A stretch of 64,000 nt of DNA from Candidatus Zixiibacteriota bacterium (GTDB lineage: Bacteria > Zixibacteria > MSB-5A5 > GN15 > JACZUZ01), in assembly GCA_024280835.1 (NCBI GenBank), contig JAJRPJ010000012.1, forward strand, positions 248,001-312,000, in the 5' to 3' direction. Positions 32,415 to 34,216 of the stretch are shown one piece after another. A program made the translations under genes and the position numbers. Position 1 is the stretch's first letter; every line of letters begins with the position of its first letter. The notes below the pieces were generated by a model. It ran no database searches and was not told where the DNA came from. It saw only the letters and a list, made by a program, of their open reading frames with translations.

Positions 32415-32510
32415 TTACTTATTCTTCTTCTTATGACGATCGCGTCTTCTGCGTTTTTTACGCTTATGCGTCTTAATTTTCTGACGCTTCCGCTTTTTTC
32501 CGCTTGGCAT
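32415..32510 (-). CDS. AURKAIP1/COX24-type small basic ribosome-associated protein
   Basis: This 31-residue protein is almost entirely Lys and Arg, beginning MPSGKKRKRQKIKTHKRKKR and ending RRRDRHKKKNK. The pattern is that of the AURKAIP1/COX24 domain proteins of FCB bacteria and of mitochondria, which are small basic proteins associated with the ribosome. The ribosome site is excellent (GGAGG, 4 bases before ATG). A strong terminator follows. It lies directly downstream of the HU/IHF gene on the same strand, with 77 bases between, and is too short for usual gene callers. Confidence 0.9.
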   Translation of the reverse strand: MPSGKKRKRQKIKTHKRKKRRRRDRHKKKNK

Positions 32511-33196: not shown

Positions 33197-33271
33197 GTAG
33201 GTCGAAATCCCTTGTGGTTTCGACATTTCTCTGTAGCAAAAGAGTCGAAACCACAAGGGATTTCGACCTAC
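33197..33271. repeat. Large perfect inverted repeat, REPIN-like
   Basis: Two 28-base arms, 33197-33224 and 33244-33271, are perfect reverse complements around a 19-base centre. Each arm is itself a small palindrome (GTCGAAA...TTTCGAC, 33201-33207 with 33218-33224 and the mirror copy). Two mirrored small palindromes are the layout of a REPIN, a pair of REP elements in inverse orientation. This is direct sequence observation; mobilisation by a RAYT-type transposase is inference. Confidence 0.9.
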
Positions 33272-33292
33272 AAAACTGTGTTGGAATATTTC

Positions 33293-33320
33293 TTCACAAT
33301 TCCAAATTATTTACTATATT
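33293..33320 (+). promoter_or_regulatory. Candidate sigma-70-type promoter of the small-gene island
   Basis: TTCACA (33293-33298) and TATATT (33315-33320) are spaced by 16 bases. Each box differs from the sigma-70 consensus by one base. It lies about 100 bases upstream of the first small ORF, right after the palindrome. Confidence 0.45.
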
Positions 33321-33327
33321 AAATACG

Positions 33328-33347
33328 GTAGAGCGTTATCGCTCTAC
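33328..33347 (+). other. Perfect hairpin in the leader of the small-gene island
   Basis: GTAGAGCG (33328-33335) pairs with CGCTCTAC (33340-33347) around a 4-base loop, just downstream of the candidate promoter. It could be a leader structure or the stub of another small repeat. Confidence 0.6.
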
Positions 33348-33419
33348 AATTAAAAGTAACCGCGCCAACGCAGTTTCTATGCGTCCTAATCGCCAAGAAC
33401 TACAGAAATAGGTGGCGAA

Positions 33420-33662
33420 ATGGGTTATCGCTTTTTGTTAATTCCAGAATGCGATTGGCTTGGAGAAATAAGAAAAAGCGAGGCTGTTGATCTTGGGATT
33501 ATATCCTTCATAAAACGCTCTTGTGTGATGCAGCTAAGGCGGCATGTCACAAAAGTTACCACCCCGATATTGGGTCAGGGTGTGTTGAATGAAGGAGGTG
33601 CATTATGCATGCTTGACATTTATTATGAAGAGACAACTTTAATAAAGGTACTTCCAAGATGA
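33420..33662 (+). CDS. Orphan small protein (80 residues), unrecognised
   Basis: Starts MGYRFLLIPECDWLGEIRKSE and ends LDIYYEETTLIKVLPR. An AGGTGG stretch lies 4 bases before the ATG. The protein has one hydrophobic entry and a mixed hydrophobic pattern and no cysteine-type motif. No family is recognised. The next small ORF starts 11 bases after its stop, as in an operon. This stretch has more G than C on the + strand, opposite to the rest of the window. Confidence 0.5.
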   Translation: MGYRFLLIPECDWLGEIRKSEAVDLGIISFIKRSCVMQLRRHVTKVTTPILGQGVLNEGGALCMLDIYYEETTLIKVLPR

Positions 33663-33672
33663 AGGATGAAAA

Positions 33673-33909
33673 ATGGAAACACTAATAGTGGTTGCTGTAG
33701 TAGTCATCGTCGGAATCATCATTAAATGGAAATGGGACCATTCAGTCCAATGGACATATTGTGATTGGTGTAGTCAACCCACATGGGGGTATAGAAAGGA
33801 CAGTAAAAATCACCATGGCACTTTTTACTGCTCAGGAAGATGTGCAAGGGCCGATGAAGCATCTAGAGGCGTTAAGGAAAAAAGATATCGTATAATAGAC
33901 GGTGAGTAA
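33673..33909 (+). CDS. Orphan small membrane protein with zinc-ribbon-like cysteines (78 residues)
   Basis: An N-terminal membrane helix (METLIVVAVVVIVGIIIKWKW, about 2-19) is followed by a soluble domain with YCDWC and FYCSGRC: two pairs of cysteines with CxxC and CxxxC spacing separated by about 21 residues, plus a His-His pair. This pattern suggests a small metal-binding ribbon facing one side of the membrane. AAGGATG precedes the ATG. The family is unknown to me. It overlaps the next candidate ORF by 8 bases. Confidence 0.65.
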   Translation: METLIVVAVVVIVGIIIKWKWDHSVQWTYCDWCSQPTWGYRKDSKNHHGTFYCSGRCARADEASRGVKEKRYRIIDGE

Positions 33910-34051
33910 CAGCCATACTAAACTAAAGTCAATGCGCGTCAAAAGAGCGTTCACTAGGGAATGGCTCTATTGGCCAGACATAAATGATGCACCCCACTTC
34001 TATCAAATTCTTTTAGACTCTAGAACTAAGAGTGAAACTTTTCAAGTTTAA
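33902..34051 (+). CDS. Possible 49-residue small protein overlapping the preceding ORF
   Basis: A frame from GTG at 33902 (or ATG at 33932, giving 39 residues) ends at TAA 34049-34051. The product contains VKRAFTREWLYWPDINDAPHF, which is protein-like with aromatic and acidic spacing. The stop-start overlap with the preceding ORF suggests translational coupling. There is no clear ribosome site. It is too short for usual gene callers. Confidence 0.35.
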   Translation: MSNSHTKLKSMRVKRAFTREWLYWPDINDAPHFYQILLDSRTKSETFQV

Positions 34052-34100
34052 TCAGCCAATGTCGGTCGCCCGCCACTGGCTCCTACGAGCTACTAATTAT

Positions 34101-34216
34101 CGGGCTGGTGGCCCGTCCGCTCTGCGGCGGGTTTCTAGTTGACAAGCTACTCTGAATATAAATCTGAAACCCTGAATCTCAACCATTTCTCTGTAAACCT
34201 GCCCCAGATGGGCAGG
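34101..34216. repeat. Cluster of short GC-rich palindromes
   Basis: Three hairpins lie close together: CGGGC/GCCCG (34101-34105 with 34111-34115), CCCG-T-CCGC/GCGG-CGGG (34112-34120 with 34124-34131) and CCTGCCC/GGGCAGG (34198-34204 with 34210-34216). This is the right-hand limit of the small-gene island; REP-like origin is possible. Confidence 0.6.

Follow-up and report, generated by a model that had tools for sequence, protein, structure and literature searches.

In a 64,000-nt stretch of a Candidatus Zixiibacteriota genome (contig bases 248001−312000, referred to here as the window), two small open reading frames, ORF1 and ORF2, lie in tandem on the + strand, with the minus-strand genes hup and sppA on either side. 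The sequence-only reading described this segment as an island of orphan genes with reversed strand skew, bounded by palindromes and of recent arrival, which raises the questions of whether the ORFs are genes and how they came to occupy this spacer. The most likely answer, to which we assign a probability of about 0.6, is that a compositionally foreign and probably horizontally acquired pair of ORFans has settled in a repeat-prone spacer.

An enlarged spacer between hup and sppA

The contig, 401,841 bp long, belongs to a 3.31-Mb genome that is 96% complete, and the site is located deep within it. The features of the locus are as follows.

32588−32893, minus strand: hup (HU protein; Pfam E = 1.8e-32).
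About 33097−34250 (approximate): DNA gained relative to relatives, delimited by sister homology and gap lengths; the right limit is an estimate, set before the sppA terminator.
33197−33271: REPIN of the GTAG-tagged REP family A, i.e., two inverted 28-nt REPs (33197−33224 and 33244−33271), 19 nt apart.
33293−33320, + strand: promoter-like site TTCACA-16-TATATT, a consensus match only, at 10/12 positions.
33328−33347, + strand: leader hairpin GTAGAGCG-TTAT-CGCTCTAC (RNA fold z = −2.6 for 33326−33425).
33420−33662, + strand: ORF1, an 80-aa ORFan with an AGGTGG ribosome-binding site 5 nt before the ATG.
33673−33909, + strand: ORF2, a 78-aa ORFan with an AAGGA site upstream.
33902−34051, + strand: 49-aa ORF, probably not a gene, with a GTG start within the end of ORF2.
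34101−34220: dispersed element of family B, ~120 bp, with inverted REP-like arms (GGTGGCCCGTCCGCTCTGCGGCGGGTTTCTAGT) and a spacer of ~55 nt.
34256−34289: intrinsic terminator, most likely that of sppA; the arms of its inverted repeat are 15 nt long and 93% complementary, and T tracts are present on both strands (read from the sequence).
34319−35215, minus strand: sppA (S49 peptidase; E = 5.2e-50).

Each of the 13 relatives for which the stretch compared spans both SppA and HU has the two genes side by side and in the same orientation. According to the alignments, the gap between them is 1425 bp here, 557 bp in a sister of the same genus and only 134−215 bp in 12 order-level relatives. The sister, whose SppA is 84% identical to that found here, is homologous over 32345−33096 (82%) and then again from 34320. 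Because homology breaks at the former position and returns at the latter, ~200 bp beside hup are ancestral and ~1.15 kb are new. The sister's syntenic gap contains neither ORF1 nor ORF2, and together with the shorter gaps in the other relatives this identifies the extra DNA as an insertion, by which the spacer has grown by about 1.15−1.2 kb. The comparison of sister genomes, which had been proposed as a check, thus yielded a site without the ORFs. Syntenic homologues with normal skew, which would have spoken against a recent arrival, were also looked for; no homologue was found in the relatives searched.

The sister's gap is not empty, as it holds an extra 0.35 kb belonging to another palindromic repeat family with 32 matches in the sister genome. 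This repeat (L013 2400−2740) is a member of a palindromic family of up to ~200 bp, the third family seen at the hup-sppA gap. Given the insertions found here and the different repeat at the same gap in the sister, the spacer is repeat-prone in this genus. The locus offers a clean case of ORFan insertion into a conserved spacer in which a sister holds another repeat at the same place.

Two unrelated repeat families at the borders

The palindrome to the left, with 33-nt arms that are 94% complementary, had been called REPIN-like. It consists of an exact copy of REP-A (GTAGGTCGAAATCCCTTGTGGTTTCGAC), which carries a GTAG tag at one end, and its exact reverse complement, and as single-stranded DNA the doublet is predicted to fold into a hairpin of −34.6 kcal/mol (z = −11.3). 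The genome contains 18 copies of REP-A at up to 3 mismatches, versus 0 for a reversed-pattern control. It also encodes an intact RAYT, a Y1 transposase of 167 aa (L062 1360−1863; matched part C8:2898−3224; NCBIfam REP_Tyr_transpos, E = 2.3e-40), the gene of which is followed by an exact REP-A 14 nt past the stop codon and preceded by a 2-mismatch copy 21 nt before the start codon. The left palindrome thus combines a GTAG tag, an inverted-doublet hairpin and dispersed copies with a RAYT that has this REP on either side, and because this RAYT occurs in the genome, the palindrome is a REPIN in the strict sense. The segment L062 1318−1911, i.e., an intact RAYT gene between inverted GTAG REPs in the same genome, is itself a REPtron. 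Matches of the left palindrome to Rfam microRNA families were rejected; they fall far under the gathering scores and reflect the perfect hairpin alone.

GTAG-tagged REPs and REPINs together with RAYT transposases have been described (PMC3733652, PMC3116915 and PMC2817692). The REP-A system resembles these in its one-end tag, in its inverted doublets forming long hairpins, in its dispersal and in the presence of a REP-flanked RAYT; it differs in having few copies (18 when up to 3 mismatches are allowed) and is otherwise ordinary. The REPINs are therefore already known in kind, and the novelty of the locus is confined to the ORFans. Zixibacteria are not among the host phyla named in the available part of the REP/RAYT survey (PMC3733652), and relative to that part the RAYT-REPIN system is extended to this phylum.

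On the right side, the GC-rich palindromes noted earlier form a single element that is also repeated elsewhere. Four more full-length copies of family B align at 83−84% in the same genome and one at 76%, and its REP-like sequence has 8 matches in this genome and 2 in the sister. Inverted arms and dispersed copies are what is expected of a REPIN or MITE; no family B copy was found at the loci of the genome's seven Y1 transposases. Compared with TIR/MITE-like repeats such as the TIRs of "TIRtrons" (PMC3733652), family B is alike in its length of ~120 bp, its inverted arms and its dispersal in the own and sister genomes, but unlike them it has no copy beside any of these transposases. Several repeats of both families are also found on a 10.2-kb contig of the same genome (C2:5432−9684), where the sequence adjoining one copy (L050) is 5S rRNA-like by eye.

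The check proposed in the sequence-only reading thus shows that both palindromes recur in the genome, but as two different families. This outcome bears on the idea that the locus is one composite mobile element, with the palindromes as transposon ends and the genes as cargo. The ORFs are indeed bracketed by palindromes, and REP-flanked RAYT genes do exist, but the two ends are unrelated and each is copied elsewhere without these genes, so they do not delimit one transposon; in addition, no transposase is found inside and the DNA between the ends occurs only once in the genome. A single composite transposon was therefore rejected, and we consider this origin highly improbable. Integron attC sites were also considered but not adopted, since inspection by eye revealed no pattern of that kind.

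Composition and coding capacity of the inserted DNA

The count of 90 G against 55 C on the + strand of 33421−33780 given in the sequence-only reading is exact. When the window is scanned in 360-bp stretches, G exceeds C by most (+42) in the stretch that begins at 33411, against a mean of −31.8 (sd 16.6) for the window as a whole, which makes it the window's peak of positive values. The reversal is found only in ORF1 (skew 0.24) and ORF2 (0.27); the leader (33285−33419, −0.16) and the region of the 49-aa ORF (−0.15) are not reversed, and both palindromes are at or below zero. With only these two ORFs reversed, the term "island" was slightly too broad. Gene direction was considered as a cause and excluded, because the 11 other large + strand genes of the window all have negative + strand skew (−0.09 to −0.25). 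When 57 pieces of 480 bp from other + strand genes are used for comparison, their skew is −0.17 ± 0.08 (maximum 0.03), versus +0.27 for ORF1 and ORF2 together. The GC content at third codon positions is 0.36 in ORF1 and 0.35 in ORF2, as compared to 0.43−0.53 in the other large + strand genes of the window, and the GC content of 33285−34095 is within the lowest 0.6% of the window.

Composition does not by itself establish that the ORFs are translated, and a competing explanation is that they are not genes but non-coding or decayed DNA, open by chance, that arrived with the repeats. Codon scores, trained on the window's own genes, place ORF1 in the overlap between real and spurious ORFs and ORF2 within the spurious range, under 99% of host gene pieces. 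These values, mainly that of ORF2, speak for the non-gene explanation, although foreign genes, like non-genes, would be expected to score poorly with a host-trained measure. In dinucleotide shuffles of the segment, one ATG-initiated ORF of at least 75 aa is common (17%), but two in tandem are rare (0.1%). Ribosome-binding sites before both ORFs, a skew reversal that matches the ORFs and not their surroundings, and the protein-like combination of cysteine signature and N-terminal membrane helix in ORF2 (see below) also argue against chance. We regard the non-gene explanation as unlikely, yet deserving of serious weight. The two larger + strand ORFs with minus-strand flanks that were noted earlier are thus retained, whereas the possible third one is doubtful: the 49-aa ORF has a codon score typical of spurious ORFs, its skew is not reversed, and a search of 132 genomes from the phylum yielded no relative.

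Searches for relatives gave a uniform outcome for ORF1 and ORF2. Neither the sister of the same genus nor the 132 genomes of the phylum contained a significant relative; there was nothing significant in collections of phage, plasmid, viral-contig and genome-contig sequences, and no family match in Pfam, PHROGs, NCBIfam or PADLOC. The genome-contig scans for both ORFs reach close relatives only. In the ORF1 scan the query also carried part of SppA, by which the relatives could be named at the same time; every match was due to SppA, although a few set in slightly before it, at residues 60−79. Weak tblastn matches to ORF2 (E 0.004−0.01) were judged to be due to chance because they show ~30% identity over 43−70 residues and run through stop codons. 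At the DNA level, the sequence between the palindromes has no match in the sister or in two other genomes of the family, where only the palindromes are matched.

The lack of homologues of ORF1 and ORF2 in every collection searched can be read in favor of the non-gene explanation, and it is also compatible with de novo birth of genes in an expanded, repeat-rich spacer, since relatives were found nowhere outside this genome in those collections and repeats have enlarged the spacer in this genus. A locally born gene would, however, share the local composition, while the skew and third-position GC content of the pair are unlike all local DNA. Furthermore, the sister lacks a related non-coding sequence (its matches are to the palindromes only), and a full TRASH-like cysteine signature is not likely to arise in this manner. 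De novo birth hence appears quite improbable. No donor or relative was found, so that it is composition from which a foreign origin is suggested, and horizontal transfer is held only as more probable than de novo birth. The claim of a recent arrival is supported by the absence of a syntenic homologue, by a sister gap without the genes and by a composition unlike that of the other large + strand genes.

The ORF2 protein and a proposed history of the locus

As the sequence-only reading had it, the 78-residue protein has a membrane helix and paired cysteines. The helix spans residues 2−24 at the N-terminus, and the cysteines are arranged as C30-x2-C33-x18-Y52-C53-S54-x2-C57, a signature of which the six-frame translation of the window contains a single full instance. 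The zf-FCS consensus of the TRASH clan is CX2CX14-30FCSX2C (PMC4047054), to which the CX2CX18YCSX2C of ORF2 conforms with Y in place of F. In the structure model, residues 1−20 form a helix with a pLDDT near 88, followed at low confidence by a beta hairpin and a short helix. ORF2 thus resembles zf-FCS proteins in its cysteine signature, and the weak model places a beta hairpin between the cysteine pairs and a short helix after them; it differs in the Y for F substitution, in having no Pfam match and in being a bare membrane-anchored protein of 78 aa. Neither Pfam nor NCBIfam gave a TRASH-clan match, and because no curated model matches it, ORF2 is termed TRASH-like and not filed as a member. 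With the weak fold model, a structural search of the PDB gave no match; when the PDB was searched by sequence, a member of the TRASH clan, eL24, came up, but without significance (E = 1.3). The structure model of ORF1 is uninformative (mean pLDDT 37).

Upstream of ORF1, the candidate promoter of the earlier description agrees with the consensus, but 8 such sites were found, as compared to 3.5 ± 1.8 in shuffles. The leader hairpin it described is present. A second hairpin is predicted at 33380−33420 on the + strand, in which CGCCA pairs with the AGGTGG ribosome site of ORF1, so that translational control is a possibility.

We propose that a short spacer, in a gene order conserved across relatives, gathered insertions in this genome. 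A GTAG-type REPIN would have been copied into the spacer by the RAYT that this genome encodes at another site, and the small inverted-repeat element of family B would represent a second insertion. The ~0.8 kb of AT-richer DNA between the palindromes, with its own leader and two tandem ORFans, most probably arrived horizontally, from a phage or another mobile element. The repeats would not have carried the genes as a unit; rather, all would have settled at one tolerated site, which extends from the sppA terminator to the region upstream of hup. The promoter-like site and leader hairpins could give rise to an independent, translationally restrained transcript between these limits, and the ORF1 and ORF2 proteins would be made together. 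Judged from its sequence, ORF2 is likely a small zinc-binding, TRASH/zf-FCS-like protein anchored in the inner membrane that may bind a partner, nucleic acid or metal; ORF1 is a possible partner. A bolder version, which we consider a long shot, is a new two-gene module transferred from host to host by as yet unsampled mobile DNA and serving defence, metal sensing or element maintenance, in which a hairpin over the ribosome site restrains translation of a membrane-anchored TRASH-like zinc protein and its small partner. Should the ORFans prove functional, they would represent a new, small pair of proteins; if not, the locus reflects ordinary spacer dynamics. Under the favored reading, i.e., a foreign ORFan pair, it would illustrate on a modest scale how repeat-rich spacers acquire new small genes.

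Downstream of hup, at 32415−32510 on the minus strand, lies an unlisted gene for a highly basic 31-aa protein (MPSGKKRKRQKIKTHKRKKRRRRDRHKKKNK). It gives a weak COX24_C/AURKAIP1-like match under the cut-off (E 0.022), and a GGAGG precedes its ATG.
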